A stretch of DNA of 64,000 nucleotides from a virus. The translations under genes and the position numbers were made by a program. The stretch lies in the IMG/VR virus record IMGVR_UViG_3300044712_000340, positions 1 through 64,000 of that record, one strand, 5' to 3'. This document shows positions 9,540 through 23,110 of the stretch, in pieces; the stretch's first letter is position 1; each line of letters begins with the position of its first letter. Below the pieces are notes generated by a model. That model made no database searches, had not been told where the DNA came from, and was given only the letters and a program-made list of their open reading frames with translations.

Positions 9540-9547
9540 CAAATATA
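9540..9547 (-). promoter_or_regulatory. late packaging operon promoter (-7 box)
   Basis: TATATTTG on the minus strand, about 20 bases before the first ATG of the minus-strand operon, in a divergent intergenic region of almost pure A/T. It matches the Bacteroidota -7 consensus. Confidence 0.55.
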
Positions 9548-9605
9548 AAACAAAAATAATTAAAACAAAATATAACCTATAATAAAAATTATATTATAAA
9601 TATAA

Positions 9606-11053: not shown

Positions 11054-11497
11054 TTACCCTCCGAATTCTACATTAAGTGTTAATTTACCTGTTTTTAAAA
11101 ATTCATTTCTAGTATCATTTCTTCCTTTCCAAAATACCATAGGATTAATAAAGTAAGTTCCTTTATCCCCCTCTAGCAATCCATTAACTTTTAAATGTTT
11201 TATAGCATTAGATAATTGTTGAGAACTTATACCTAGAAACTCAACTAATCTATTTCTTTCCCCTGAAGGTAAAAGTACTCTACCTGTATTGTATTCTGCC
11301 ATTATGCAGAACTTAGTTAATACTTTCATTTCAACTACAGATTTTAAATTAAAGAATCCTGCCATATTTTCTATATAAGTCATATAGAACTCATCTTGGT
11401 TAACCCTAACTGAGAAAGTTTTAGAGGTAGTTGTAATCTCTCCTGTCTCAGGATCCACAACTGTTTGCTCATGTTTTAATTTCTTATTCTTTATCAT
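11054..11497 (-). CDS. RepL-like replication initiator (winged helix)
   Basis: 147 aa. The layout is that of RepL-type plasmid initiators: a VDPETGEI strand near residue 15, a helical core, a winged-helix segment (about 77-105, LVEFLGISSQQLSNAIKHLKVNGLL), and the family ending GTYFINPMVFWKG at 113-125. RepL-like proteins occur in cultured crAss-like phages and have been linked to plasmid-like replication. It is encoded alone with one small gene against the surrounding plus-strand genes, has a strong own promoter, and reads away from a repeat-rich candidate origin. Confidence 0.72.
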   Translation of the reverse strand: MIKNKKLKHEQTVVDPETGEITTTSKTFSVRVNQDEFYMTYIENMAGFFNLKSVVEMKVLTKFCIMAEYNTGRVLLPSGERNRLVEFLGISSQQLSNAIKHLKVNGLLEGDKGTYFINPMVFWKGRNDTRNEFLKTGKLTLNVEFGG

Positions 11498-11498
11498 G

Positions 11499-11519
11499 TG
11501 TACATTTTATTAGTGTACA
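11499..11519. promoter_or_regulatory. paired TGTACA operator-like sites at the repL start
   Basis: Two palindromic TGTACA hexamers (11499-11504 and 11514-11519) spaced 15 bases apart lie between the repL -7 box and its start codon, overlapping the predicted transcription start. The placement suits autorepression by a dimeric protein. Confidence 0.4.
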
Positions 11520-11549
11520 AATTTAACAAAAACTTGTGTAATTTACAAA
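11518..11549 (-). promoter_or_regulatory. repL promoter with -33 and -7 boxes
   Basis: On the minus strand TTTG (11546-11549) and TAAATTTG (11518-11525) are separated by 20 bases, a full match to the Bacteroidota sigma-ABfr promoter layout. The start codon follows about 21 bases downstream, giving a short leader. Confidence 0.65.
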
Positions 11550-11566
11550 CTTTATTTTACAATTCA

Positions 11567-11860
11567 ATTCACTCATGAGTGAACCGTTTTATGCCATGAG
11601 TGAATAGCATAACGGTAGGAATGAACGACAAATCTTGTAACTAATTAACATTCAATTATATCCTTACTTACCCCTTCTTATCTATTATGATAGGGTAGAT
11701 TTATCTACCTATATGATAAAATAAATTGAACTACAGTATGTTATCATCCCTTATGCATAATATCATACCTATAAGATAACAAGCAACCTGTATGATAACA
11801 CAGTAATGTCCAGTAAATTATAAAAAAAAACTGGACAAACATAAGCCTATACTGTAGACT
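11567..11860. other. candidate replication origin region
   Basis: Upstream of repL, without any open frame: a 16 bp perfect palindrome (11568-11583), a second half-copy ATGAGTGAAT (11596-11605), an inverted repeat ACCGTTttATGC/GCATAACGGT (11583-11594, 11607-11616), GTAGAtttaTCTAC at 11695-11708, four copies of TATGATA in either orientation (11686, 11712, 11761 reversed, 11791) with a near copy at 11742, a long-range repeat CTACAGTAT/ATACTGTAG (11731, 11849), and an 8 bp hairpin TGTCCAGT/ACTGGACA with a 15-base A/T loop (11807-11837). Iteron-like repeats plus palindromes beside an initiator gene suggest an origin. Confidence 0.45.
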
Positions 11861-11973
11861 AGATGGTAGATATATGAGAAGTACATATTAGTAATTTCAA
11901 AAAAAAATTATAAAAATTTTTAAAGTAACATGTATATCGTTATGTGTTTACTATTCCATAAACATACCCCCAC

Positions 11974-12085
11974 TAAGTTAGAGCGAGTGACAGTATCCCT
12001 GTCATTGTTTAGTGTGACCAAGATTGCTGAATATCCTAGAGATATTACAAATCGGAAGACTACATACTAATCACTCACTAACTTA
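11974..12085 (+). ncRNA. structured RNA domain 1
   Basis: Closed by TAAGTTAG (11974-11981) pairing with CTAACTTA (12078-12085), continued inward by GAGTGA/TCACTC. An inner GACAG/CTGTC hairpin (11989-12003) follows at once. No open frame. Strand is assumed from the poly-U tails of neighbouring domains. Confidence 0.45.
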
Positions 12086-12092
12086 CACTGCT

Positions 12093-12144
12093 GATAGGCC
12101 AGATATAGTCTATCACTTATTTTGACTATCCTCTTCAGCCTATC
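12093..12144 (+). ncRNA. structured RNA domain 2
   Basis: GATAGGC (12093-12099) pairs with GCCTATC (12138-12144); inside, ATAGTC (12105-12110) pairs with GACTAT (12124-12129). A compact 52-base rod-like element eight bases after domain 1. Confidence 0.4.
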
Positions 12145-12158
12145 TATATACCACAATG

Positions 12159-12206
12159 ATGTAGTATTAACTTACAGGTTTATAAGCCTTTAGGTTAATA
12201 TTACAT
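12159..12206 (+). ncRNA. structured RNA domain 3 (long hairpin)
   Basis: A 13 bp stem with a single G-U wobble joins 12159-12171 to 12194-12206; an inner AGG/CCT helix closes the tip. The 3' arm is followed by a partial repeat of its 5' arm (GATGTAGTA at 12214), which could compete for pairing. Confidence 0.45.
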
Positions 12207-12282
12207 ATCATTTGATGTAGTACTTAGGTTGATAGGTTATAGTTCTATACAGTTATGATGACATAACGTATAACTTGAATGG

Positions 12283-12322
12283 AAGTGTTGTTATTGTTAC
12301 AACAGAGAGAATAACACACTTT
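12283..12322 (+). ncRNA. hairpin upstream of 29 aa membrane mini-gene
   Basis: AAGTGT and TTATT pair with AATAA and ACACTT around a 14-base loop. It lies 53 bases before the start codon at 12375; the intervening stretch 12323-12374 is plain A/T. Confidence 0.3.
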
Positions 12323-12374
12323 TCACCAATTTTACCAATAATTGAAAATTACTAACTTTAATAATATAGCTAAA

Positions 12375-12464
12375 ATGAAAGCAAATATACCATTAGCAAT
12401 ATACATTATAGGTACTTTAGCTGCTATTGTAGTTACAGTGTACTTCATAGTATTTGTACAATAA
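12375..12464 (+). CDS. 29 aa membrane mini-protein
   Basis: MKANIPLAIYIIGTLAAIVV... is almost entirely one transmembrane helix with a short charged N-terminus. ATG 12375, stop 12462-12464. It belongs to a set of five similarly tiny membrane proteins in 12-18 kb. No function recognised; single-helix inhibitors or holin-like roles are possible. Confidence 0.45.
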   Translation: MKANIPLAIYIIGTLAAIVVTVYFIVFVQ

Positions 12465-12470
12465 CATAAA

Positions 12471-12526
12471 GGATGAGCAAGATTAGGTCTTGTATTAAGT
12501 ATGTCAATCGCATTGACACCTCATCC
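12471..12526 (+). ncRNA. structured RNA domain 4 (three-way junction)
   Basis: Closed by GGATGAG/CTCATCC (12471-12477, 12520-12526). Two inner hairpins: CAAGA/TCTTG with loop ttagg (12478-12492) stacks directly on the closing stem, and TGTCAAT/ATTGACA with a CGC triloop (12502-12518). The 56-base three-way junction is complete, with no unpaired gap on one side, which is hard to get by chance. Confidence 0.55.
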
Positions 12527-12534
12527 TATTCATA

Positions 12535-12597
12535 CATCACAAGCAGGTTTGCAACTATGAATAAGCATAGTTAAGGGTTCGATTCCATTTGTGGTGC
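12535..12597 (+). tRNA. shrunken tRNA-like RNA
   Basis: A 7 bp acceptor-like stem (CATCACA 12535-12541 with TGTGGTG 12590-12596, one G-U), a short D-like arm GCA/TGC (12543-12552), a 5 bp anticodon-like stem CTATG/CATAG (12555-12570) and a T-arm with the canonical TTCGATT loop (12578-12584). But the anticodon loop is 6 bases, the variable loop 2 bases and the total 63, against about 76 for a real tRNA. No CCA is encoded. It is either a decayed tRNA or a tRNA mimic; I do not assign an amino acid. Confidence 0.5.
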
Positions 12598-12599
12598 TA

Positions 12600-12690
12600 A
12601 TAAACGTAGAGCTGTTCTAGATACTCACAGTATTGTATAGTGATTAGGGTATTGCTTTAGCGAGCTAATTATACAAGTCTTTACGTTTAT
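12600..12690 (+). ncRNA. structured RNA domain 5 (cloverleaf-like)
   Basis: A 9 bp perfect closing stem ATAAACGTA/TACGTTTAT (12600-12608, 12682-12690) encloses three arms: AGA/TCT (12608-12618), ATACT/AGTAT with a CAC triloop (12621-12633), and a long arm TTGTATA...ATTAG/CTAAT...TATACAA (12633-12676). It starts three bases after the tRNA-like element. The plan is a four-way junction like a tRNA without a T-loop. Confidence 0.55.
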
Positions 12691-12696
12691 ATCTTA

Positions 12697-12729
12697 CAGG
12701 TTAAACAGTGTTGCCTGAAAATACACTGT
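12697..12729 (+). promoter_or_regulatory. H-type pseudoknot in the leader of the 123 aa gene
   Basis: Hairpin ACAGTGT/ACACTGT (12705-12711, 12723-12729) has CCTG in its loop (12714-12717), complementary to CAGG just upstream (12697-12700). The pseudoknot ends 20 bases before the ATG at 12750, where it could act as a translational operator, for example for autoregulation by the encoded protein. Confidence 0.45.
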
Positions 12730-12749
12730 AATATCTTAATATCAATATT

Positions 12750-13121
12750 ATGTCATTCAATTCAATGTGTCTAGTTAATGCAGTAGCATTCAATTCAGGT
12801 AAAACCGATAAAAATGGTGAAACACCAGTATTACTTAATGTTCTTGCAGGCAAAGCTCCTAATAGGACTGTTATCTCTGGTACAATTGCAAAACGCAATG
12901 GTTATGAGTTAGGTAAGATGTACATTGTACAGATTACTGAAGGTAAAGAAGATCCTCAATATGGACGTCAATTCAACATTAACAAAATCTCTGAATGCTC
13001 AGTAACAGAAATGTTCTCAGCTATCAAGGGATTTGGTGCTGCTGAAATCTTTACGGTAGGACAAGAGCAAGATGCTTCTGTAGAAGAAGTTATTACTGTA
13101 GTTGATACAGAGATTAAGTAA
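12750..13121 (+). CDS. conserved protein, possibly OB-fold/ssDNA-binding
   Basis: 123 aa. The middle (ISGTIAKRNGYELGKMYIVQITEGKEDPQYGRQFNINKIS) is a run of beta strands with alternating hydrophobic and charged residues, compatible with an OB-fold; a short acidic C-terminus (VITVVDTEIK) follows. Codons are more balanced (GGT, GCT, CGC) than in neighbours, a sign of high expression. It has a pseudoknot in its leader and a terminator after it, so it is an independent unit. A single-stranded DNA-binding role is an inference; nothing decisive is visible. Confidence 0.5.
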   Translation: MSFNSMCLVNAVAFNSGKTDKNGETPVLLNVLAGKAPNRTVISGTIAKRNGYELGKMYIVQITEGKEDPQYGRQFNINKISECSVTEMFSAIKGFGAAEIFTVGQEQDASVEEVITVVDTEIK

Positions 13122-13138
13122 TCTTCTTGCAAAATAAT

Positions 13139-13166
13139 GAAAGGTGTAGCAATGCACCTTTCTTAT
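13139..13166 (+). terminator. terminator after the 123 aa gene
   Basis: GAAAGGTG/CACCTTTC 8 bp stem (13139-13146, 13155-13162) with loop TAGCAATG followed by a T-rich stretch. Confidence 0.75.
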
Positions 13167-13191
13167 TACTAATTTAAAACTTATAGAAGAA

Positions 13192-13377
13192 ATGAAGATA
13201 TTTGCATTAATTTGTTTTGCATTGATTATTACTTTTGGAATAATTAATTCTTTAAATAAACCCAAAGAATTAACAATATCACTACCTGAAGAAATAAGAC
13301 AAGCTACATCTCAAGATACTTTAATATGTATTAAGAGAAATGATACATTATTCATAGAATTTAATAATAAATACTAA
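13192..13377 (+). CDS. secreted or membrane-anchored small protein
   Basis: 61 aa. MKIFALICFALIITFGIINSL is a signal-anchor-like hydrophobic N-terminus; the rest is a polar ectodomain of 40 residues. No signal peptidase II cysteine in the right place. No family recognised. Confidence 0.55.
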   Translation: MKIFALICFALIITFGIINSLNKPKELTISLPEEIRQATSQDTLICIKRNDTLFIEFNNKY

Positions 13378-13384
13378 CAATATA

Positions 13385-13459
13385 AAACAAGGTAATACCT
13401 AAATAGGTCTTATTAAAAGATAATTAATAAGGTTGGAAAAGACCATAATTACCTTGTTT
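13385..13459 (+). ncRNA. structured RNA domain 6 (12 bp closing stem)
   Basis: AAACAAGGTAAT (13385-13396) pairs perfectly with ATTACCTTGTTT (13448-13459). Inside are GGTC/GACC (13406-13409, 13441-13444) and CTTATT/AATAAG (13409-13414, 13426-13431), giving one long imperfect rod of 75 bases followed by ATTTTAT. It may also act as a terminator for the gene before it. Confidence 0.5.
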
Positions 13460-13474
13460 ATTTTATAGTATTGT

Positions 13475-13578
13475 CACGATTCCTCTAACCTCGTGAATAT
13501 CCTGTAAGTTTCAGGCTGTACCTATACTAGATGTAAATAGGATATTATACATTTGAGGCTAGTTAATTTGTATAATAT
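13475..13578 (+). ncRNA. structured RNA domain 7 with mutually exclusive stems
   Basis: After a CACGA/TCGTG hairpin (13475-13495), AATATCCT (13496-13503) can pair with AGGATATT (13539-13546). But ATATTATACA (13542-13551) can instead form a 10 bp stem with TGTATAATAT (13569-13578). The two helices share 13542-13546, so only one can form, as in a riboswitch or attenuator. Confidence 0.45.
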
Positions 13579-13662
13579 GATAAAGTGAAAGGAAAGCACT
13601 TGTCTACTTTGACAAACCCAAGTTCCACGTAGCTTAATTAATTGCTATTGTATAGCTATGCT

Positions 13663-13690
13663 AGCAGACCAGATAGTCTGCTTTTAATTT
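13663..13690 (+). terminator. terminator-like hairpin before the 141 aa gene
   Basis: AGCAGAC/GTCTGCT (13663-13669, 13676-13682) with loop CAGATA, followed by TTTTAATTT. It could end the preceding RNA or attenuate transcription into the gene at 13714. The stretch 13579-13662 holds smaller hairpins only. Confidence 0.6.
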
Positions 13691-13713
13691 GTAAATCTTT
13701 AAATCTTAATATT

Positions 13714-14139
13714 ATGGAAAACTTATATTTAGGAAAGTATAATTCTGCTGAAAGTTCTAAAGAAATAACAGTAGGAAAAGGAAATTTTATGTGGCATGGA
13801 ATGATGTCTCATTTATACTTTAATAGAAGTATAATTGAATTAAATTCTATAGTAAACGAAATACAACGTATAAAAAATACTAAAGCTACTCTAATAGAAA
13901 AAGCAGTAGATTTAATAAATAATTTTCATTGGACTCATATGATGGAAGATAACAGTAACGCTACTACAAAGCAACGTAAAAAAGAGGAAGAATTAAAAAA
14001 GATTCTTGAAATATGCACAGAAGATATGTTAAAAGATATATATGTTGCTTATATACACAAAGCATTGATTCATTCTATGGGATGGAAAAGCCCTATGTCT
14101 TATGATAAATTTGTATCAAGAGAGTTACCCTTAACATAA
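13714..14139 (+). CDS. hypothetical protein
   Basis: 141 aa from ATG 13714; the longer TTG-initiated frame would run back through a terminator-like hairpin. Helical, with a charged middle (TTKQRKKEEELKKILEIC) and repeated His/Met/Trp residues (MWHGMMSHLYF, HWTHMMED). No family recognised. Its leader TAAATCTTTAAATCTTAATAT is repeated before the next small gene at 14162. Confidence 0.6.
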   Translation: MENLYLGKYNSAESSKEITVGKGNFMWHGMMSHLYFNRSIIELNSIVNEIQRIKNTKATLIEKAVDLINNFHWTHMMEDNSNATTKQRKKEEELKKILEICTEDMLKDIYVAYIHKALIHSMGWKSPMSYDKFVSRELPLT

Positions 14140-14161
14140 ATAATCTTTAAATCTTAATATA

Positions 14162-14287
14162 ATGAAATTAATGAAATCTAATTGGAAATCATTAGTGATA
14201 TTAATGGTTCCTGTAATCTTATTAGTTGCAGCTATTGTATATAATGTTGTAACAGTTGGAACTAGTTGCTATTTAGTAACTATGTAA
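14162..14287 (+). CDS. 41 aa membrane mini-protein
   Basis: A basic N-terminus (MKLMKSNWK) then a transmembrane stretch (SLVILMVPVILLVAAIVY) and a short polar end with one cysteine. ATG 14162, stop 14285-14287. Shares its A/T leader sequence with the gene before it. Confidence 0.5.
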   Translation: MKLMKSNWKSLVILMVPVILLVAAIVYNVVTVGTSCYLVTM

Positions 14288-14294
14288 GCTCAAA

Positions 14295-14343
14295 AAGTGA
14301 GAACATATTTAATATGTTATTACATCTCACCTTATTATTTTTC
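14295..14343 (+). terminator. terminator after the 41 aa gene
   Basis: GTGAGA/TCTCAC (14297-14302, 14325-14330) encloses a perfect AACATAT/ATATGTT inner stem; a T-rich tail (TTATTATTTTTC) follows. Confidence 0.65.
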
Positions 14344-14376
14344 TTCTTAAATTTGTTAAACTTTAAAACTTAAAAT

Positions 14377-14559
14377 ATGACCTGGAATCAAAAACTATGG
14401 AGGGACACTCCAGAAGATGACACAGATCAAGATACTTACTGCTTGCAATGTGGTAGATATATTGATCCTAATTTCAGTAATCATAATGGATTATGTGATT
14501 ACTGTAATGAAAGAAAGTATGATAATGAAGAATTAGATTGTTGTAATAAAGTTAAATAA
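14377..14559 (+). CDS. zinc-ribbon mini-protein
   Basis: 60 aa with CLQCG and CDYCN (about residues 27-45) forming a CxxC...CxxC zinc ribbon, flanked by acidic segments; a further CC pair lies at the C-terminus. No family name recognised. Such ribbons often bind nucleic acid or proteins. Confidence 0.55.
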   Translation: MTWNQKLWRDTPEDDTDQDTYCLQCGRYIDPNFSNHNGLCDYCNERKYDNEELDCCNKVK

Positions 14560-14561
14560 TT

Positions 14562-14657
14562 ATGAAAACAATCTATAAAGTACTCAAAGTTATTACTATT
14601 GTTATAGTAATATTAGCTATTATAGTATTAATTACACCTTTAATAGCATTAATATGA
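14562..14657 (+). CDS. 31 aa membrane mini-protein
   Basis: MKTIYKVLKVITIVIVILAIIV... is one hydrophobic helix with a basic start. The stop overlaps the next start (ATGA at 14654-14657), showing coupling and supporting that both are translated. Confidence 0.5.
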   Translation: MKTIYKVLKVITIVIVILAIIVLITPLIALI

Positions 14658-14752
14658 ACTGGAACGATTTTAAAAATGAATTATTGCCTTATATTTTTAT
14701 GATAGTAACCTCTGGGTTACTGTTATATATTTATGTAAGGTATATAATATAA
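14654..14752 (+). CDS. 32 aa membrane mini-protein
   Basis: A polar start MNWNDFKNELLPY is followed by a single transmembrane helix (IFMIVTSGLLLYIYV). Coupled by ATGA overlap to the mini-gene before it; together they look like a two-component membrane unit. A GTAACC/GGTTAC hairpin lies inside the gene at 14705-14720. Confidence 0.5.
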   Translation: MNWNDFKNELLPYIFMIVTSGLLLYIYVRYII

Positions 14753-14763
14753 GATACTAATTA

Positions 14764-14998
14764 AGCTAGTTTATGAACAGCCACACCATTCGTTGTATAC
14801 AAGGAGTAATAAGGTGTAAAGAGGTGAGATGCCTCATTCGAGTAATATCTGGTTGCTAGCCAGAAATAACATATAATATTAATTAAAGAGTTGTTGTACA
14901 ACTATCCAGTAAGTTGCTGGCCATTTGAATAGTAAGCATACTTTTAAATCAGGGATACGTTTGTAATAGAAATATTATTTAGCTTTCATGAACTAGCT
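14764..14998 (+). ncRNA. structured RNA domain 8 (235 nt, 14 bp closing stem)
   Basis: The 14-base arm at 14764-14777 pairs with 14985-14998 with one G-U wobble and no other defect. Inside are ACACC/GGTGT (14783-14817), GAGG/CCTC (14821-14835), TCTGG/CCAGA (14849-14864) and CCAG/CTGG (14906-14920), so a multi-branched RNA is likely. No open frame of use. It begins 11 bases after the membrane mini-gene. Confidence 0.55.
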
Positions 14999-15000
14999 AT

Positions 15001-15078
15001 CTCAAATGAGAAATATGAATCAGTGTAATTCTGACCTACAAAGGAATAGTATTCCAATGTAACTGCTATAGGCAGTAA
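15001..15078 (+). ncRNA. hairpin train between domains 8 and 9
   Basis: Four short perfect hairpins follow each other: CTC/GAG (15001-15010), TCAG/CTGA (about 15020-15034), GGAAT/ATTCC (about 15042-15055) and ACTGC/GCAGT (about 15062-15076), then a run of nine A. Their regular spacing suggests a folded unit but pairing is short. Confidence 0.3.
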
Positions 15079-15090
15079 TTAAAAAAAAAT

Positions 15091-15272
15091 AAAGATTTGG
15101 TAACTAAATAATAATTCGGATAGAAAACCTGTAGAAATTACAGTTAATTAGACTATCAAGAGTAAAATCTTATATTATTTAGTCAACTTAGGTTGAAGTT
15201 TGAATTCAATGGTTTAGCTTACGAGCATTAAAACAATGGAGTTTCCAGTAGTTCAAACTTTACCAAATCTTT
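15091..15272 (+). ncRNA. structured RNA domain 9 (giant cloverleaf)
   Basis: A 13 bp perfect closing stem (15091-15103 with 15260-15272) opens into a four-way junction with no spare bases: an 11 bp arm (15103-15113 with 15173-15183), a CAAC/GTTG tetraloop hairpin (15184-15195) and a 9 bp arm (15196-15204 with 15252-15260). The first arm branches again into GATAG/CTATC with an inner CTGTA/TACAG, and AAGA/TCTT. The 182-base RNA ends in TTTTT. It is the clearest evidence that these are selected RNA structures. Confidence 0.65.
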
Positions 15273-15283
15273 TTAAAATATAG
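15266..15283 (+). repeat. 18 bp spacer repeat, copy 1
   Basis: AAATCTTTTTAAAATATA occurs here after domain 9 and identically at 15550-15567 before domain 12. It resembles the A/T leaders in front of small genes here, but no start codon follows. Confidence 0.6.
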
Positions 15284-15374
15284 TAATAAGTAATAATTCA
15301 GAGAATACTGATGATATTGAATAATAGAAGTAAATGTCTTTTACAATTACTAAAGAATAGTATTACTTATTACT
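15282..15374 (+). ncRNA. structured RNA domain 10 (14 bp closing stem)
   Basis: AGTAATAAGTAATA (15282-15295) pairs perfectly with TATTACTTATTACT (15361-15374). Inner hairpins: ATTCA/TGAAT (15296-15322) and GTAAA/TTTAC (15330-15344). 93 bases, about the size of a small RNA. Confidence 0.6.
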
Positions 15375-15381
15375 TTAACAT

Positions 15382-15534
15382 AATAACAAATAATATTGGT
15401 GGAGTAATTACCCAGTTTATACTACAATATGAGAGTCTATAAAGTGTCAGGTATAAGTAAATCTCCTTGGTGACTTGTGAGTAGGACACCTGCTTTGTAA
15501 TCGTATAATTAACCAATTATTTGTTATTTTTTTT
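15382..15534 (+). ncRNA. structured RNA domain 11 ending in U8
   Basis: AATAACAAATAA plus ATTGGT (15382-15400) pairs with ACCAAT plus TTATTTGTTATT (15512-15528) with a two-base bulge, and eight T follow at 15527-15534, as in an intrinsic terminator. The interior has CAGGT/ACCTG (15448-15492) and GGTG/CACC options. The U-tract fixes the strand as plus. Confidence 0.6.
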
Positions 15535-15549
15535 AATAAAACTCTAGTT

Positions 15550-15567
15550 AAATCTTTTTAAAATATA
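15550..15567 (+). repeat. 18 bp spacer repeat, copy 2
   Basis: Identical to the copy at 15266-15283 (AAATCTTTTTAAAATATA). It precedes domain 12. Confidence 0.6.
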
Positions 15568-15688
15568 ACTATAAATTGATGTTTTAATGGAGTACTATGA
15601 ACAGTTTAAGAACACTTACAAGTATACCGAGTGCCATTTGAGTAATTGGTTGTGATGGAAAGAAGACAAACTAGACATTTATAGTTAT
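15565..15688 (+). ncRNA. structured RNA domain 12, flanked by direct repeats
   Basis: ATAACTATAAAT (15565-15576) pairs perfectly with ATTTATAGTTAT (15677-15688). The domain is bracketed by a direct repeat AACTCTAG(T/C)TAAA (15540-15552 and 15694-15706), as if the unit had been inserted or duplicated. Internal pairing is less clear. Confidence 0.5.
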
Positions 15689-15726
15689 TATAGAACTCTA
15701 GCTAAAGAGGATAAAGAAAGCCATGA

Positions 15727-15837
15727 GATAACTTATTAATTGGTTATAAGAAATAGATCGAAATAAATCTATACCAAAGATTAGAATAAAATGTAACAAT
15801 TTGTTATAGTAAAGGCTAAATTAATAAGAAGTTTATC
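15727..15837 (+). ncRNA. structured RNA domain 13
   Basis: GATAA and CTTATTAATT (15727-15741) pair with AATTAATAAG and TTATC (15819-15837). Inner hairpins are ATAGAT/ATCTAT (15753-15772) and TAAC/GTTA (15794-15806). A terminator follows immediately. Confidence 0.5.
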
Positions 15838-15838
15838 A

Positions 15839-15867
15839 GGCTGTAGTGAGATTCTACAGCCACTTTT
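15839..15867 (+). terminator. strong terminator ending RNA domains 8-13
   Basis: GGCTGTAG/CTACAGCC 8 bp stem (15839-15846, 15854-15861) with a 7-base loop, followed by CACTTTT. It probably ends the transcript carrying the preceding RNA domains. Confidence 0.75.
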
Positions 15868-15885
15868 AATTTAAAATTAGTAAAT

Positions 15886-16098
15886 ATGGAATACATTACA
15901 TTGATAGGATGGAAATCTAACATAGGAAGATCATTAAATTGGTTAACAATATCAGATATTGAATGTAGTCAAAAATGGAAAAATAAAATATATTTTCCTC
16001 AAGATGTATTAACTACTGAAAAAGGATTTTTATTAGTTCAAACTACAGAAGGAATAAAAGAATTCTCTAAAAGTCATTTTGAAATTTATAAAGAATAA
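15886..16098 (+). CDS. hypothetical small protein
   Basis: 70 aa (MEYITLIGWKSNIGRS...), beta-rich with W/K-rich strands and a C-terminal KEFSKSHFEIYKE; looks like a small barrel. No family recognised. It lies between two RNA domains and carries the common A/T leader. Confidence 0.55.
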   Translation: MEYITLIGWKSNIGRSLNWLTISDIECSQKWKNKIYFPQDVLTTEKGFLLVQTTEGIKEFSKSHFEIYKE

Positions 16099-16269
16099 AA
16101 TCTCTTTGCTTAGGAAGCAAGCAATAAGTTGCGGTGAATATCCGCCATGCAAGGCAAGCTAACTATAAGCTTATGATTTGGCAAATCAGCTTGCGGAATA
16201 AGACACTTAACAGAGATAGTAAACTCTTTAAAACGTAAGGTGTTACAGCCAAGTACAGAGAGATTTTTT
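16097..16269 (+). ncRNA. structured RNA domain 14 ending in U6
   Basis: AAAATCTCT (16097-16105) pairs with AGAGATTTT (16259-16267) and T continues to 16269. Inner helices: GCGG/CCGC (16131-16145), a 7 bp GCAAGCT/AGCTTGC (16154-16160, 16188-16194) holding GATTT/AAATC with a GGC loop (16175-16187), and ACAC-TTA/TAAGGTGT (16204-16242). This region is clearly more G/C-rich than its surroundings, as structured RNAs in A/T-rich genomes tend to be. The closing stem overlaps the stop of the preceding gene. Confidence 0.6.
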
Positions 16270-16274
16270 AATAT

Positions 16275-16445
16275 AATAGTTAATAAACCAAGAAAATTGG
16301 TTGAAGATCATTTGTTAGATATATAGATTAATTGACATAGATAACATTAAGAGTTAAAACCTGCTATAATAAGTGCGCCACTTATGATGGGATTGAAAGC
16401 AGTAGCAAGTATAATTATAGAATACAGAAATTCATATTAACTATT
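16275..16445 (+). ncRNA. structured RNA domain 15
   Basis: AATAGTTAATA (16275-16285) pairs perfectly with TATTAACTATT (16435-16445). The first inner hairpin AACCAA/TTGGTT (16286-16302, loop GAAAA) stacks directly on it. A second arm has CTGCT/AGCAG (16361-16365, 16398-16402) around ATAAGTG/CACTTAT with a CGC triloop (16369-16385), the same triloop as in domain 4. Confidence 0.6.
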
Positions 16446-16476
16446 TTAATTGGAAATTAACTAAAATAATAAATAT

Positions 16477-16855
16477 ATGTGTTTAATTTTAAATAAAGAC
16501 TCAAAAAAATTGTTAGCAAAAAAAAGATATTTTTTGCTATAAATGGTTATTTAAAATACCTATTAAAGATTCAATAGATAAAAATTATAATTATAAAACA
16601 GTATATCAAAAAGTAGATGTCGTAATTGGTGAGACTTATATTTCCGAACTTAGACGTATAGACTCTGTATATTTTTCTTATATTACAAAAGGGTTACATT
16701 CATATAAACATATACCTGTTGATGTATTTTATAACGCTATTCTTGTGGAATGTATTATACCAAAAGGAGCAAAATATTATAGTGGACGATTTAATGCTAT
16801 GTCTAGTTATGCTTCTGATACATTGAAATACATTAAAATAATAAATAACTTATAA
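16477..16855 (+). pseudogene. small conserved phage protein, frameshifted at an A8 run
   Basis: From ATG 16477 the frame reads MCLILNKDSKKLLAKK and hits a stop after 21 codons; the rest (DIFCYKWLFKIPIKD ... GLHSYKHIP ... VECIIPKGAKYYSG ... SYASDTLKY) is open in the +1 frame to TAA at 16853-16855. Removing one A from the eight at 16518-16525 restores one protein of about 125 residues with the pattern MCLxL, K-D-I-x-C-Y-K, GLHS, CIIPKGAxYY, YASDTLKY that I associate with a family common in Bacteroidota phages. Either a real lesion, a slippage site or a sequencing error. Confidence 0.7.
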
Positions 16856-16897
16856 TCCAACGGAGGAATACTCATGTAACATTCGAGGATACTAATC

Positions 16898-16994
16898 TAT
16901 GCAGTTGAAGTGGAATTGGCTTGATCCAATCGATAGATATAGAAGGACACTCAAAAGGGATGCAGGTAGCCAATGTCTTAGAAAGGTCTGCATA
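16898..16994 (+). ncRNA. structured RNA domain 16
   Basis: TATGCAG (16898-16904) pairs with CTGCATA (16988-16994); inside, ATTGGC (16915-16920) pairs with GCCAAT (16969-16974), with an alternative local hairpin ATTGG/CCAAT (16915-16930). Upstream 16856-16897 is G/C-richer than average but I see no clear stem in it. Confidence 0.45.
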
Positions 16995-17025
16995 AGTTAT
17001 TTAAACTAATTAAAACAAAAGTAAA

Positions 17026-17403
17026 ATGTATATTGTAGATATTGAAAAGTTTACTTTTTTGCAAAGAGATTTTCTAGTGCCTATTTACATGGCTAGAGGG
17101 TGCTTTAACGGTAGAGATCTGCATCCAATAATTACTATTGAAGATAAAATATATGTTCTATCTCATACAAAACAAAAAGGAAAAAGATTAAATATTAAGA
17201 TAAGAATCTATGATATAGAAGGGGAATTTATTACAGGTATAAAATCTTTCAATAGCCATCTTACTGGAAATCAGTATTTAACTTTACCTTTATTTAAGCC
17301 TAATAAAATTTATTCTAATATAAGTGGGTATATAATGATAAAACCTTATTTATATGATTTAGGTCTAACTGTTAAAAAATTCAAACTAATTAAAACTGTA
17401 TAA
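17026..17403 (+). CDS. hypothetical protein
   Basis: 125 aa, beta-rich and basic, with no clear domain (MYIVDIEKFTFLQRDF ... YLTLPLFKPNKIYSN). It begins a run of four closely spaced genes to 18130; the next start lies one base after its stop. Confidence 0.6.
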   Translation: MYIVDIEKFTFLQRDFLVPIYMARGCFNGRDLHPIITIEDKIYVLSHTKQKGKRLNIKIRIYDIEGEFITGIKSFNSHLTGNQYLTLPLFKPNKIYSNISGYIMIKPYLYDLGLTVKKFKLIKTV

Positions 17404-17404
17404 T

Positions 17405-17866
17405 ATGAAATACAATTTAGTGGCTAGATGGCCTGGAACAGATTTATGTTATAGGGATAAGCAATGCCCTAAGTGTAAAAAAGAATATTTAGATACAGAT
17501 AAAATATTTTGTGATATTTGTGAATGTACTAAAGAAGAAACAATTGAAGAAGCTATGCAAATATCTTTAAAAGATAAATTTTCTGGTTGGACTGTATCAC
17601 CTGTTTTTGATGGGAATGAATTAGAAGATGCTTGGATGAGAGGAGCAAATTGGCAAAAAGAACAAGATCTTACTCTTATTAAAGAAGGAGTAATATGTCT
17701 GAAAGAATCTAATATTCTTCTAGAAGCAATGTCTAATAAAATAGATAAAATGTATACTGAAGAAGAAGTTTACAATATTGCATTTTTATTATGGGAAGGA
17801 TATATTCACGAAACAAAAGAATATCCTGATTATTGCACATGGTTTGAACAAAATAAAAAGAAATAA
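17405..17866 (+). CDS. zinc-ribbon protein
   Basis: 153 aa. Residues 21-24 (CPKC) and 36-39 (CDIC), with C41 nearby, form a four-cysteine zinc ribbon at the N-terminus; the remainder is helical and acidic, with an EEAMQISLKDKFSGW motif and a C-terminal YCTWFEQNKKK. No family recognised; possibly a nucleic-acid-binding or protein-binding adaptor. Confidence 0.6.
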   Translation: MKYNLVARWPGTDLCYRDKQCPKCKKEYLDTDKIFCDICECTKEETIEEAMQISLKDKFSGWTVSPVFDGNELEDAWMRGANWQKEQDLTLIKEGVICLKESNILLEAMSNKIDKMYTEEEVYNIAFLLWEGYIHETKEYPDYCTWFEQNKKK

Positions 17867-17867
17867 T

Positions 17868-18029
17868 ATGCCAGAAATAATAACATTAAATGATTTGCTA
17901 TTAGGGACTTTAGTAGCAATCATAATTGTAGTAGCTTATAAAGTAGCTACAGGAAAAAATTTCATTTCAAAGGAAGATAATAGTCCCACTTGGAGTGAAT
18001 TAGAAAGTAGAAGATTAAATAAAAGATGA
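17868..18029 (+). CDS. small membrane protein
   Basis: 53 aa from ATG 17868 (MPEIITLNDLLLGTLVAIIIVVAYKV...), one N-terminal transmembrane helix and a polar C-terminus. A longer frame starting inside the preceding gene is rejected. Stop overlaps the next start (ATGA). Confidence 0.55.
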   Translation: MPEIITLNDLLLGTLVAIIIVVAYKVATGKNFISKEDNSPTWSELESRRLNKR

Positions 18030-18130
18030 ATCCTTTGATAAAATTCTTGCTTGTCATAGCTATTATGATAAGTATAATAACATTTTGTTATATAGTATAT
18101 ACTATTATAACAAACAATAAAAACAAATAA
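18026..18130 (+). CDS. 34 aa membrane mini-protein
   Basis: MNPLIKFLLVIAIMISIITF... is a single transmembrane helix followed by TNNKNK. ATGA overlap with the preceding membrane protein gene and one base before the next start, so it is likely translated. Fifth of the tiny membrane proteins in the 12-18 kb region. Confidence 0.5.
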   Translation: MNPLIKFLLVIAIMISIITFCYIVYTIITNNKNK

Positions 18131-18131
18131 A

Positions 18132-18449
18132 ATGGAACTATTAGTGAGACAGAAAAGGCCATTACAGGACTTTTCAAGTGGTAAATGGGTAAATAAACAA
18201 TTTCCTATTATCTTTTATACAATAAAGGATAATAAAAGATTGGTTATAACTCATATGAGTGAGGATGTAAGATCATATGTATTGACATTAACTATAAACA
18301 ACAATTCGTGTATAGGTAAATACAATACACATGAAGATTCTTTATTGTTCAATTTAAATATGGAAGACAATAATTTAAGAATAAAAGATAATACAAGGAT
18401 AGAAGGTCTTGTATTATTAGAAAGAATTGCACCAAATGAGCCAATTTAA
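18132..18449 (+). CDS. hypothetical protein
   Basis: 105 aa, beta-rich, beginning MELLVRQKRPLQDFSSGKW. N-rich middle; no family recognised. Last gene before a 580-base stretch of structured RNA. Confidence 0.55.
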   Translation: MELLVRQKRPLQDFSSGKWVNKQFPIIFYTIKDNKRLVITHMSEDVRSYVLTLTINNNSCIGKYNTHEDSLLFNLNMEDNNLRIKDNTRIEGLVLLERIAPNEPI

Positions 18450-18490
18450 GGCTGTGATTTAATTGATTTTAGGGTAGGTGCACCCATCTT

Positions 18491-18545
18491 AAAGGGGTAG
18501 ACAGTCTGGTTTTCAATAAGGCTATTCGTTTCCAGGCTGCCCTTT
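18491..18545 (+). ncRNA. structured RNA domain 17 (hairpin)
   Basis: AAAGGG/CCCTTT (18491-18496, 18540-18545) and CAGTCTGG/CCAGGCTG (18502-18509, 18532-18539) stack into a 14 bp stem with one G-U and a small 5' bulge, topped by a 22-base loop. Upstream a GGT/ACC hairpin (18471-18484) adds a second element. Confidence 0.5.
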
Positions 18546-18556
18546 ATAAATTTAAA

Positions 18557-18640
18557 AGGGGCTTAATAATTAATAACATTGATTGTTAGTATTATATGTA
18601 ATAGGTAGGCAGTTTTCCCCTCTGCCGTTATTAGGATGTG
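18557..18640 (+). ncRNA. structured RNA domain 18 with possible pseudoknot
   Basis: GGCAG/CTGCC (18608-18612, 18622-18626) has CCCC in its loop (18617-18620), complementary to GGGG at 18558-18561 upstream. The pair could form a long-range pseudoknot around an A/T-rich spacer. No open frame. Confidence 0.35.
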
Positions 18641-18695
18641 TTGGATTTATTTTCATAATTTTTAGGTTTAGGTTAATAATGTTTTGGTTAGTATA

Positions 18696-18730
18696 GTACT
18701 ACAGGTTGCATCCTACTGTAGTGCTTTTTT
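18696..18730 (+). terminator. terminator before the tRNA-like gene
   Basis: GTACTACAG/CTGTAGTGC (18696-18704, 18716-18724), 9 bp with one G-U, followed by TTTTTT (18725-18730). Confidence 0.75.
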
Positions 18731-18734
18731 ATTT

Positions 18735-18742
18735 TATATTTG
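18735..18742 (+). promoter_or_regulatory. -7 box directly upstream of the tRNA-like RNA
   Basis: TATATTTG matches TAnnTTTG. The predicted start, about 7-10 bases downstream, coincides with the first G of the acceptor-like stem at 18753, and a terminator isolates it from upstream transcription. This is the layout of an independently transcribed RNA gene. Confidence 0.5.
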
Positions 18743-18752
18743 TAGAATATTT

Positions 18753-18860
18753 GGGTTGTATGTTACTGGGTGGTAATATCCTAATGGTATGATTTAGGAA
18801 GTGATAGAAATATGTGATATCCTAATACTATCTTATGAAGTTCGAATCTTCAACAACCCA
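18753..18860 (+). tRNA. oversized tRNA-like RNA
   Basis: A perfect 7 bp acceptor stem GGGTTGT/ACAACCC (18753-18759, 18853-18859) with discriminator A, a perfect T-arm TGAAG/CTTCA with the canonical TTCGAAT loop (18836-18852), and a D-arm TTAC/GTAA with a GGG-containing loop (18763-18776). The anticodon-like arm TCCTAA/TTAGGA has a 9-base loop, and a 36-base region with GATAG/CTATC replaces the variable loop. The 10-base repeat ATATCCTAAT occurs twice (18776, 18817). At 108 bases it is too long for an ordinary tRNA; no amino acid is assigned and CCA is not encoded. Confidence 0.55.
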
Positions 18861-18863
18861 CTA

Positions 18864-19010
18864 AAATAGTAATAATTTTATAGAAATCTATAGGAAACTG
18901 TAGACGTAAATACAATACAATATTAAGAAGATAATTTATTAATGTTGGAATGCTGGAGTTTGTATATTGGTAGTAAGAAAAGGCTAGACTATCTTAAACT
19001 ATTACTATTT
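18864..19010 (+). ncRNA. structured RNA domain 19
   Basis: AAATAGTAATA (18864-18874) pairs perfectly with TATTACTATTT (19000-19010), 11 bp, enclosing 125 bases with a TATAG/CTATA hairpin (18879-18892). It begins four bases after the tRNA-like element and ends 21 bases before the endolysin start. Confidence 0.5.
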
Positions 19011-19031
19011 ATTGTTTAACTTAAAAAGAAA

Positions 19032-19508
19032 ATGATGAAATGGATATTAACATTAGTATTATGTCTTATTTACTTGAACATAAATCCAAGTATAAAAGAA
19101 TTAAAGGGAAATAAATTAAATTCTATTAAAAGTTTATCTATTGAAGGTAAAGAGCTAATTTACAAGAAAGTATATCAAGAAACAATAGAAACACTAAAGA
19201 GACAAGAAGGATTTAGAGCTTATTTCTACTCAGATAACGGATATCAATGTATTGGTTATGGTCAAAGAATAAAGTTTTATTCTGAGAAGATACAAGAACC
19301 AGTTACAAAAGAGCAAGCAACTAGGATTCTTGAAAAGAGTTTTAATAATCATATTAAACTAGTAAAAAGAATATATCCTAAATTAGATGATATAAGAGTT
19401 ATAGAATTAGCTCATATATCATATCAAAGTGGAATAGTAAAAGTAATTAAACTAATGAAAAATCAATATGAATTACAAAATAGTAACCAACGAACAACAG
19501 TTAATTGA
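19032..19508 (+). CDS. GH24-type phage lysozyme (endolysin) with N-terminal membrane anchor
   Basis: 158 aa. Residues 1-20 are hydrophobic (MKWILTLVLCLIYLNI), a signal-anchor. The catalytic region shows E59 (RQEGF), D68 (YSDNG) and the CIGYGQR strand at 73-79, matching the GH24 E-D-T arrangement (EGxxLxxYxDxxGxxTIGYG) but with cysteine where threonine is usual. It would cleave peptidoglycan at lysis; a secreted or SAR-type mode is suggested by the N-terminus. The C-terminal lobe is short and overlaps the next gene by 41 bases. Confidence 0.7.
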   Translation: MMKWILTLVLCLIYLNINPSIKELKGNKLNSIKSLSIEGKELIYKKVYQETIETLKRQEGFRAYFYSDNGYQCIGYGQRIKFYSEKIQEPVTKEQATRILEKSFNNHIKLVKRIYPKLDDIRVIELAHISYQSGIVKVIKLMKNQYELQNSNQRTTVN

Positions 19509-20148
19509 GTTCATTGATTGGCTACCAGAGCTTAGATACAATGAGACTTTTTATGTGTGTCTATTTGCACGTAAGAAGTATTGTCAGCATTTAGTTCATA
19601 TAGCTAGTGATAAAGGTCAAATGAAACGATTTACTTCTAAAAAAGATTATCTTATTCAAAAGATAAAACAATTAGAATGTGAAGTAGGAAATTATACTGT
19701 TAAAGGTGTAATTGCACCCCAAGAAAGTTTAGCTTTGTATATCAATCCTAACCCCAGGGACATGGAGAAAGCAGCCAAACAATCTTTAAAACATTTTGCT
19801 GAGTTAATTACTAAACCTTATGGAGGATGGAATCCTCAAGCAGAAGTTATATCAGAAATACAGAAAGCTAAAAGTAGAACTATTTATTTTGACATTGATT
19901 TTGATGGAGTAGAGATATCTTCTATAAAAGACAGATTGTTAGGAATATTAAATTATTCTTCCTGCCATTTTCTTAAAACTAGAGGGGGATTCCATTTATT
20001 AGTTGAAATAGATAAAATTAATGAAGAATATAAGAAAACTTGGTACAAATCTGTAACTTCTTTTGAGGGTATAGATATTAAAGGAGACAATATGATTCCT
20101 GTACCAGGATGTACACAAGGAGATTTTACACCTTATTTTATAAAATAA
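19468..20148 (+). CDS. primase-polymerase-like (AEP-type) protein
   Basis: 226 aa. It carries IYFDIDFDG (139-147), a metal-binding DxD strand, and KTRGGFHLLVEID (170-182), resembling AEP motifs I (hhDhD) and II (sGxGxHhhh). A conserved block PVPGCTQGDFTP (211-222) ends the protein. This suggests a small AEP/PrimPol-like enzyme or a catalytic relative, but the third acidic motif is unclear, so I keep it tentative. It overlaps the endolysin gene, with which it is likely cotranslated. Confidence 0.45.
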   Translation: MNYKIVTNEQQLIEFIDWLPELRYNETFYVCLFARKKYCQHLVHIASDKGQMKRFTSKKDYLIQKIKQLECEVGNYTVKGVIAPQESLALYINPNPRDMEKAAKQSLKHFAELITKPYGGWNPQAEVISEIQKAKSRTIYFDIDFDGVEISSIKDRLLGILNYSSCHFLKTRGGFHLLVEIDKINEEYKKTWYKSVTSFEGIDIKGDNMIPVPGCTQGDFTPYFIK

Positions 20149-20163
20149 TAAATCTAAAATAAA

Positions 20164-20649
20164 ACGGAAAAAGAAATTAAAATACAAGTACCTGATGGGT
20201 ATGAAATTGATAAAGATAAAAGTACTTTTGAAAGAATAGTATTTAAAGAGATTAAGAAAAATTTGACTTATAATGATATTGCCAAAAATCTATTTACTGG
20301 AAAAGACTTATGGAATTTAGAAGAAGGTGATGTAGATAAACTTGATTGGTCTTTAACAGACATTTTATATGCAGATAATTCTAAAACAAGAGAGCAATTA
20401 GAATCAATTTTAGCTTTAAATAAGTTATGTAATGTAGCTAAATACTTGAATGGTGACTGGATTCCTAATTTTATGGATTCTAGTAGAAAATGGTATATTT
20501 ACATAAGTGAAGGTGGAGCATTAAATATTCATAACTTTATTTCTACTAAGTTTAGTATTGTCTATTTTAAAACAGAACAACTAGCACAACAAGCTATAGA
20601 AATTTTAGGTGAAGAAGAAATAAGAAAAGCATTAACTTTAAATTGGTAG
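20164..20649 (+). CDS. conserved small phage protein with apparent ACG start
   Basis: In frame with a TTG at 20263 the reading frame is open back to a stop at 20155, and reads T-EKEIKIQVPDGYEIDKDKSTFERIVFK before the TTG. This segment matches the usual N-terminus (MKEIKIxVPxGYEIDKExSTFExIVFK) of a protein frequent in Bacteroidota phages and Bacteroides, so the true gene starts about 20164, where ACG stands in place of ATG. The product would be 161 aa. Function unknown. Confidence 0.6.
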   Translation, partial: TEKEIKIQVPDGYEIDKDKSTFERIVFKEIKKNLTYNDIAKNLFTGKDLWNLEEGDVDKLDWSLTDILYADNSKTREQLESILALNKLCNVAKYLNGDWIPNFMDSSRKWYIYISEGGALNIHNFISTKFSIVYFKTEQLAQQAIEILGEEEIRKALTLNW

Positions 20650-20651
20650 AT

Positions 20652-20993
20652 ATGGGAACTCAAGATTTAATAAAACTTAGTTTAGAAAAAGGATTTATGC
20701 CTATATTGTGGCATATCTCTTCATCTCCGCCAACAAAATTAGCTGAAAAATTCTATCCTTTATGGTTAAGTGATTTGCAGAAATGGTTAAGAGAAGCACA
20801 TAATATTCATATTGAAATACAAGCTATTAAAGGTGGGTATATCTCTACTAAGTTAGATGAACCTAAAATTCATTATAGACAAACTGTGTATACTGATTTA
20901 GTTACAGAAGATACATTAGATGAAACAAAATATAACATATATGAAGAGGCTTTAGAGTCTGCTTTAGAAGAAGCATTAACACTAATAAAATAA
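20652..20993 (+). CDS. conserved small phage protein
   Basis: 113 aa from ATG 20652. It has the pattern LxKGFxPxxWH...LQKWLREAHNIHIEI...Y..ALESALEEAL common to a family of small phage proteins in Bacteroidota. Function unknown. It starts two bases after the preceding stop. Confidence 0.6.
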   Translation: MGTQDLIKLSLEKGFMPILWHISSSPPTKLAEKFYPLWLSDLQKWLREAHNIHIEIQAIKGGYISTKLDEPKIHYRQTVYTDLVTEDTLDETKYNIYEEALESALEEALTLIK

Positions 20994-20996
20994 AAT

Positions 20997-21218
20997 ATGG
21001 AAATGTTTATAGGTTGCTGGAATAGTAGGCTAGATATTGTTCCAGAGCTTACTGAACAGGAAAAACAAGAAATATATGGAACTAATTGGAAATTTTTAAC
21101 TAATAAAAACTTAAATTATGGAGACTTACAAGACAAAATTAACAGACAGAGTTGCTGTATTATATCAATCAACAATGTTGGAAGCAGCAAAACCTGTGAC
21201 AAGACAGGAATTAATTAA
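20997..21218 (+). CDS. hypothetical protein overlapping next gene
   Basis: 73 aa (MEMFIGCWNSRLDIVPELTEQEKQEIYGTNW...). The last 100 bases overlap the 103 aa gene in another frame, and the C-terminal composition (C-, S- and N-rich) looks less natural than the first 40 residues. It may have lost its original end. Confidence 0.4.
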   Translation: MEMFIGCWNSRLDIVPELTEQEKQEIYGTNWKFLTNKNLNYGDLQDKINRQSCCIISINNVGSSKTCDKTGIN

Positions 21219-21429
21219 TAGAGAATGGGTAATAGACTTACCTGTTATAAGAAAACCACACAATAGGTACAGAAAAGATACACTATTATCTCCTGAACAA
21301 AAAGAAAGCCTTAAAGAAAACTATGGTAATCTTTATCTTAAAGGTATGACAGAACAAGACATTCTTAAAGTACTAAGAAAAAGACACAAGAACCACAAAT
21401 TAACTATGTTTGCTATAATTAGAAATTAA
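21118..21429 (+). CDS. helix-turn-helix-like small basic protein
   Basis: 103 aa, very basic. The C-terminal part (LKENYGNLYLKGMTEQDILKVLRKRHKNHKLTMFAII) looks like a recognition-helix or resolvase-like HTH segment. It might bind nucleic acid; no family recognised. Confidence 0.5.
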   Translation: METYKTKLTDRVAVLYQSTMLEAAKPVTRQELINREWVIDLPVIRKPHNRYRKDTLLSPEQKESLKENYGNLYLKGMTEQDILKVLRKRHKNHKLTMFAIIRN

Positions 21430-21453
21430 TATTAACCTTAAAAATTTATTATT

Positions 21454-21624
21454 ATGCCGCTATTTTGTGAAGTATGTAAAGTTGTTGTTAGTAAATTTAC
21501 TAAGCAACATTCAGATCCTTTTCAGCCTTATAATGATTTAACAGCTAAATTAGCTGAGATTCAGGCTAAAGAGGATATGAAGAAAGAAAAAGAACAAGAA
21601 AAGAAGAAAGAGAAAAAGTCATGA
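21454..21624 (+). CDS. small protein with CxxC knuckle and KE-rich coiled tail
   Basis: 56 aa (MPLFCEVCKVVVSKFTKQHSD..., ending in a long K/E run). A single CxxC pair at residues 5-8. ATG 21454; TGA overlaps the next start (ATGA at 21621-21624). Confidence 0.5.
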   Translation: MPLFCEVCKVVVSKFTKQHSDPFQPYNDLTAKLAEIQAKEDMKKEKEQEKKKEKKS

Positions 21625-22031
21625 GAAAACTATTGGTTTTATTTAGTTTACTCTTAGTAGTAAACTCTCAAGCACAAACTAAGGATCAATTCAAAATCTT
21701 ATTAGATAAACTTGATTGTAAAGTTATAGTAGATACTACATCTTTTATTATAGGTGAGGTAGAATGTGAAAGGTTGATATCAGGTGTAAAATATAGAGTT
21801 GATTTATATGTTACAGGAATATTAGATAGAAATACTTTAACTTCCTGGACTGAGAGTTGGACTGATGCTACTAAACAAGATGTAATTCAAACTCTTAATG
21901 ATAATGAGTATCTAAAAAGAGCTGGGGAATCTAATGTATGGTTAGGTAGATTTGCTAATAAAGATTTTATGTGTATGCCATTGTTCTCTTATGAGAGGGA
22001 ATATTGGTATATATTATTTGTATTTATATAA
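21621..22031 (+). CDS. secreted protein of unknown function
   Basis: 136 aa. MRKLLVLFSLLLVVNSQAQ is a clear signal peptide with an AQ cleavage motif. The mature part has two cysteines that could pair (C33, C49) and W-rich strands (SWTESWTDATKQD). Periplasmic, perhaps a lysis or exclusion factor; unrecognised. Confidence 0.6.
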   Translation: MRKLLVLFSLLLVVNSQAQTKDQFKILLDKLDCKVIVDTTSFIIGEVECERLISGVKYRVDLYVTGILDRNTLTSWTESWTDATKQDVIQTLNDNEYLKRAGESNVWLGRFANKDFMCMPLFSYEREYWYILFVFI

Positions 22032-22032
22032 G

Positions 22033-22065
22033 ATAATAAGGGTAGAAATGCCCTTATTATTTTTT
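22033..22065 (+). terminator. terminator after the secreted protein gene
   Basis: ATAATAAGGG/CCCTTATTAT 10 bp stem (22033-22042, 22051-22060) and T6. Confidence 0.8.
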
Positions 22066-22091
22066 CCTTAAGGCATTTAAATTAAATAAGT

Positions 22092-22846: not shown

Positions 22847-22848
22847 AG

Positions 22849-22939
22849 TATAAGTAATGAAAAACTGTAATGGAGTACTGGAACTTCACATTAAATAATA
22901 AAACGGTTCGGAGCAGAAGTGCTGATGCTATTACTTATA
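22849..22939 (+). ncRNA. structured RNA domain 20
   Basis: TATAAGTAAT (22849-22858) pairs perfectly with ATTACTTATA (22930-22939), enclosing an AGCA/TGCT hairpin with loop gaag near 22914-22925. 91 bases, same plan as the domains in 12-19 kb. Confidence 0.5.
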
Positions 22940-22952
22940 TTTAATATGTAAT

Positions 22953-23043
22953 TATACAGAGTAAAGAGTGTAGCAACAGGTGAATAGAGATTGTAGCCTA
23001 AAAGCACCGACGATTTGGCATAGTGGGTACAGTCTCCTGTATA
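22953..23043 (+). ncRNA. structured RNA domain 21
   Basis: TATACAG (22953-22959) pairs with CTGTATA (23037-23043). Directly stacked inside, GAGATTGTA (22987-22995) pairs with TACAGTCTC (23028-23036), one G-U, and GCC/GGC closes the inner loop. A further CACT/AGTG + TTGT/ACAA hairpin (23064-23087) precedes the next gene. Confidence 0.5.
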
Positions 23044-23110
23044 GTTATATATTTATAGGTTTTCACTGTTGTACCTTAAACAATAGTGATTTTAAATTAA
23101 ATTAATTATT

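Follow-up and report, generated by a model that had tools for sequence, protein, structure and literature searches.

RNAC and RNAD of phage T4 are encoded within the T4 tRNA cluster. These two small phage RNAs, whose function is unknown, have been detected in discrete form in infected cells (PMC9697503). Phages and prophages also encode GOLLD and ROOL, large, multi-branched RNAs that are often located near tRNA islands and likewise have no known function (PMC12286853). The unit described here, U2, is encoded in a 64-kb window (the whole stretch of DNA that was analysed), taken from a virus record of 93.5 kb. It is like RNAC and RNAD in being a candidate phage small RNA, a likeness drawn by description, though clustering of such units with tRNA genes is seen in relatives only. 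T4 has two of these RNAs, while the present array, in a different phage order, has five or more tiled units with long closing stems. U2 is similar to GOLLD and ROOL in setting and in branched shape, but those are single, long (GOLLD often >800 nt), conserved families, while U2 is 182 nt and has no homologue. Phage tRNA and tmRNA genes also have ends joined by a stem, multiple branches and clustering with short separators. They differ from U2 in their T-loop, in the length of the closing stem (12–13 bp in U2), and in that U2 matches no tRNA or tmRNA model. Arrays of this kind are not described in the open-access literature on structured or non-coding RNAs in crAss-like phages, as far as our incomplete coverage of it extends; novelty was gauged against that literature and Rfam 15. 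We give a probability of about 60% to the reading that U2 is one of several cassettes making up a non-coding RNA cluster in the early (rightward) part of the genome of a crAss-like phage.

The genome encodes an MCP (phrog_11589, E 5e-121), a portal protein (phrog_6547) and a TerL (phrog_6681) of families that we take to be crAss-type, which places it among the crAss-like phages. Gene direction diverges at ~9.5 kb: structural genes point leftward from here, and the small early genes point mostly rightward. U2 is inside a non-coding stretch, 14740–15885, in which there is no ORF of 60 aa and the longest stop-to-stop run is 50 codons (table 11). A protein gene in a recoded frame was considered and rejected, as the longest runs are 54 codons with tables 4 and 25 and 78 codons, on the minus strand, with table 15. 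Two short motifs near genes were also recorded. A recurrent leader, AATCTTTAAATCTTAATAT-ATG, possibly a translation or promoter signal, is found immediately 5' of small early genes at 13694, 14142 and 14352 and at locus L020 of a related record. Promoter-like matches to TTTG-N17-21-TANNTTTG are found on the minus strand just upstream of leftward genes (11518–11549 and 9540–9569); the pattern occurs 6 times in the window with 3.2 expected, which is not significant.

Folding of the + strand with ViennaRNA reproduced the four-way junction layout that had been proposed for 15091–15272, with a 13-nt closing repeat (AAAGATTTGGTAA/TTACCAAATCTTT) that is Watson-Crick throughout (Table 1). The energy of the MFE structure is -45.3 kcal/mol, and that of the centroid is -43.1. 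Arms of 13, 11, 4 and 9 bp had been predicted. The 11 and the 4 were right, while the last arm has 11 bp rather than 9 in the MFE, and 12 of the 13 closing pairs are formed (mean P 0.94; P of the 13th pair 0.27), because A15103 extends the next arm instead. The outermost A-U pair of the closing stem frays (P 0.52). No unpaired bases had been expected beside the closing stem, and the MFE junction indeed has 0,0,0,0; the centroid has 1 nt on either side of the last arm. One arm was said to branch further, which arm 1 does, though two arms rather than one continue into further helices. The fold is nearly unchanged across 25–42 C, and the mean P of the closing stem is 0.91 with 50–400 nt of flanking sequence added at both ends, which makes the stem independent of the folding window chosen.

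Table 1. Units and structural elements, in coordinates of the window.
Feature	Position	Strand	Description	z or other support
Small unit	13385..13459	+	12-bp stem, three branches	z -4.7
U1 core motif	14761..14838	+	Conserved RNA motif within U1: UUAAGCUAGUUUAUGAACAGCC - P1 hairpin - AAA - P2 hairpin, UGAGAUG loop	Nine records, covariation
U1	14764..14998	+	14-bp closing stem AGCTAGTTTATGAA/TTCATGAACTAGCT, one G-U	z about -4.05
U2	15091..15272	+	Reported unit, perfect four-way junction, 182 nt	Folding
U2 closing stem, 5' strand	15091..15103	+	AAAGATTTGGTAA	
U2 arm 1	15103..15183	+	11 bp, branching into 4+5+5 bp helices	P 0.95
U2 arm 2	15184..15195	+	4-bp hairpin CAAC-TTAG-GTTG	P 0.98
U2 arm 3	15196..15260	+	11 bp, then 3+5+4 bp	P 0.93
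U2 closing stem, 3' strand	15260..15272	+	TTACCAAATCTTT	
U3	15282..15374	+	14-bp Watson-Crick closing stem; U2–U3 separator 9 nt	z -2.7
U4	15382..15528	+	13-bp Watson-Crick closing stem; U3–U4 separator 7 nt	z -1.6
U5	15537..15716	+	Interrupted closing helices, inner 12-bp stem 15565/15688	z 0.2
Unit	16097..16267	+	12-bp closing stem AAAATCTCTTTG/CAGAGAGATTTT	z -3.1
Unit	16275..16445	+	11-bp closing stem; separator 7 nt from unit 16097–16267	z -1.6
Unit	16842..17003	+	12-bp closing stem TAAATAACTTAT, overlaps end of preceding reading frame	z -1.2
Unit	22943..23053	+	17-bp closing stem incl. G-U pairs, 1 nt past unit 22847–22941	z -4.0

The folding energy of U2 exceeds that of dinucleotide-matched shuffles. 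The z-score is about -4.6 to -4.88, with none of 200 shuffles as stable, and a larger set of 4,000 dinucleotide shuffles also contained none as stable (best shuffle -40.2), in agreement with the claim that the layout is beyond what random A/T-rich sequence gives. U2 was called the strongest single example of the array, and it does have the top z-score between 14.7 and 17.0 kb; the separate small unit at 13385–13459 scores about the same (z -4.7). The z-scores of single units err somewhat on the optimistic side, since unit boundaries were picked by their stems, and shuffling of the array as a whole and coding controls are fairer tests.

Four or five closing-stem units sit end to end in 14740–15885. 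Under a strict criterion (a Watson-Crick stem of at least 10 bp, which leaves out U1 with its one G-U pair), 14730–15885 has 4 non-overlapping stems of 12–14 bp, with a mean of 0.40 in shuffles, and its tile score was reached by none of 400 shuffles; the array itself was thus confirmed. Among 64 coding windows of equal length, each has at most one such unit and none matches the tiling. A/T-rich sequence forms stems readily, and a genome contains many windows in which it could do so, but chance folding of A/T-rich spacer DNA is a highly improbable source of U2 given the shuffles of both the unit and the tiling and the coding windows, and at the level of the array it is excluded. The units are not all equal: the whole-unit folds of U4, U5, 16275–16445 and 16842–17003 are little or no better than shuffles (for U5, no better). 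The possibility that array units are diverged copies of each other was rejected, as a single short common stretch was reported, 25 nt at 15265/15550 that is 88% identical.

U2 is not a tRNA, a tmRNA, GOLLD, ROOL or a member of another Rfam family. ARAGORN and cmscan found no tRNA (RF00005) at U2 even at E 5. A scan of the whole window with Rfam, including GOLLD and ROOL, gave no gathering-threshold match at U2, and at E up to 5 the sole match in 11400–24200 was a sub-threshold RsaOG outside U2. Self-cleaving ribozymes, group I/II introns and riboswitches were likewise rejected, with no Rfam match at U2. There is no canonical tRNA and no tmRNA (RF00023) in the 64-kb window, and the same kinds of search detect tmRNA in two related records, G013 and G015. 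The term cloverleaf, used in the original prediction, fits the shape of U2 but not its sequence, which lacks a T-loop and any tRNA/tmRNA signal. U2 might still be a degenerate descendant of a tRNA or tmRNA gene, a remnant or an expanded form. Elements with an acceptor and a T arm but odd other arms are present in the window and in relatives, and the corresponding region in relatives contains tRNAs. The + strand of U2, however, has no T-arm motif with a TTCRA loop and is closed by 12–13 bp rather than by a 7-bp acceptor, and with no tRNA or tmRNA match at E 5 such descent is mostly excluded; we consider it very unlikely.

Some tRNA-like elements were found apart from U2. At 18752–18861 in the window is an element with a 7-bp acceptor, a perfect T arm (TGAAG-TTCGAAT-CTTCA), a D-like arm and a long extra arm (fold z -3.4), for which ARAGORN and Rfam give no match. 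Acceptor and T-arm signals with abnormal D and anticodon arms are found at ~12530–12609 in the window, with only 4 of 5 T-stem pairs, and at 6471–6556 and 10495–10580 in L020. On the minus strand of another locus, L021, at ~5330–4880, there are two tandem tRNA genes that are apparently circularly permuted, in the order T arm and 3' acceptor strand (TCTCCCC), short linker, matching 5' acceptor strand (GGGGAGA), D arm. Both are within units closed by 7–9-bp stems, with ACAGCA close behind each, and both were missed by ARAGORN. No report of permuted tRNAs in phages was found in the literature searched.

Searches for U2 itself in other genomes gave no convincing homologue. A single-sequence covariance model found none in 11 virus records or, in a separate search, in eight loci; run unfiltered against L020, its best match (E 0.007) was within an ORF and not convincing. 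The closing-stem pattern had 3 matches in 2.9 million viral contigs, all resembling coding DNA and none convincing, and BLASTN against phages also found no convincing homologue. The wider array has no match in phages or plasmids, and no closer relatives were found with neighbouring genes as bait. Terminase homologues among the viral contigs are at most about 58% identical, so there is no close relative in the contigs searched. A class of 'stem-ACAGC' units, seen in the related record G009, was considered and does not include U2.

The neighbouring unit, U1, has a core motif that is shared. Pattern scans found it in eight further virus records, nine in all (the window, L021, L022/L020, L026, L027, L028, L030, L032 and L040), with the loop form UGRGAUG. 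In eight aligned sequences, P2 is 100% paired and 2 pairs are changed on both sides. Covariation in this set, from which G001 was excluded for its diverged P2 and the variable P1 tip was removed by hand, is 0.46, compared with 0.19 in shuffles (0 of 500) and at most 0.22 with slid partners. Covariation, as a sign of structured non-coding RNA, is thus found at the U1 core motif, next to U2. The motif has no Rfam match, and in bacterial genomes the pattern has only matches that appear to be due to chance. A head or terminase protein of crAss type supports seven of the nine records (the present record, 5 of 7 others by a head protein, and G015 by terminase); crAss-type proteins are unconfirmed in G009 and G014. 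An ORF begins soon after the motif in L026, L028 and L032.

Several of the U1-motif relatives carry units with perfect or near-perfect closing stems of 11–16 bp, and a number of these are beside tRNA or tmRNA genes. In G001, a tRNA-Ala gene (11726–11799) is followed after 4 nt by a unit at 11804–11880, and a further unit at 11900–12165 (L020) has a perfect 0/0/0/0 four-way junction like that of U2, with the small hairpin placed differently. In G013, a tRNA-Gln gene (1933–2005) is followed after 8 nt by a unit at 2014–2129, and a tmRNA gene is also present. In G014 the order is reversed, with a unit at 319–482 and a tRNA-Leu gene 5 nt later (488–557). In G015, two units 5 nt apart (2077–2198 and 2204–2316) are ~150 nt upstream of a tmRNA gene. 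When the relatives are pooled, long stems are only modestly enriched in non-coding DNA. The tmRNA genes of L030 (6321–6719) and L040 (1455–1925, minus strand) are in the same region as closing-stem units, and both tmRNA-bearing records encode crAss-type head or terminase proteins.

Good support for reading U2 as a structured, four-way-junction non-coding RNA comes from its predicted thermodynamics and from its setting, because it is in a tiled array and similar units adjoin tRNA genes in relatives. Since related phages place such units beside tRNA and tmRNA genes, the units of the array probably make up a group of phage noncoding RNAs that has been little described. They could instead be untranslated spacers of early mRNA without an independent function, their stems serving only to shield transcript ends or to keep cistrons apart. 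The units are between small co-directional genes, some fold no better than shuffles, and the sequence of U2 has no counterpart in relatives, as might be expected of spacers. A spacer, though, requires neither the tiling of several units without an intervening gene nor elaborate internal branching, and the units of relatives adjoin tRNA genes; we regard this as a rather unlikely explanation.

The antisense strand of U2 folds nearly as well as the + strand (-39.8, z -4.4), because of which we infer from context that this is an RNA rather than a DNA structure. The gene-sense strand folds better in 20 of 25 units, but so it does in 75% of coding controls, and strand bias was rejected as proof of RNA. 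With the thermodynamic comparison non-discriminating, the + strand was assigned from gene direction and the U1 motif. A DNA-level element, a cruciform or palindrome for replication, packaging or recombination, would account for both strands folding and for closing stems that are mostly Watson-Crick, and the cumulative GC skew turns upward near 12–13 kb, which is close. Palindromes with inner loops of 65–210 nt are poor cruciforms, however, and such are the inner loops of these units. There is also no repeated copy of the U2 region elsewhere in the genome, and the occurrence of the units among tRNA and tmRNA genes and a covarying RNA motif is a sign of RNA, so a DNA element appears distinctly improbable.

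The best reading is that U2 is a lineage-specific stable-RNA cassette in an RNA cluster of the phage tRNA/tmRNA type, probably excised through its closing stem. The + strand of U2 would be transcribed in a long precursor along with small early genes. Each closing stem of 11–17 bp would bring the ends of its unit together and protect them, like the acceptor stem of a tRNA, and nucleases may cut the short A/T-rich separators, or the stem itself (in the manner of RNase III), freeing a compact, end-protected stable RNA. The released RNA might then act in trans during infection, binding a host RNA or protein or serving as a decoy. We favour such a role in trans over regulation of the following gene, since the closed, branched shape keeps recurring although the underlying sequences change rapidly. 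A broader proposal, which we hold to be doubtful, is that the RNA genes of crAss-like phages include a modular class whose members, cassettes of ~75–270 nt, are recognised by shape and not by sequence, with a long stem closing a tight multi-way junction, and have tRNA-like placement and processing. Such cassettes would be located between tRNAs and would evolve so fast that the set differs from lineage to lineage, perhaps through an arms race with host defences that target RNA.

Phage tRNA clusters already hold unexplained stable RNAs – RNAC and RNAD of T4, GOLLD and ROOL – and the tiled, shape-defined units, if the reading given here is true, add several more at one place. The function of such RNAs would then be testable, as this phage order has cultured members. 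A further caution is that non-coding stretches, which annotation of these genomes tends to leave blank, can be RNA genes.
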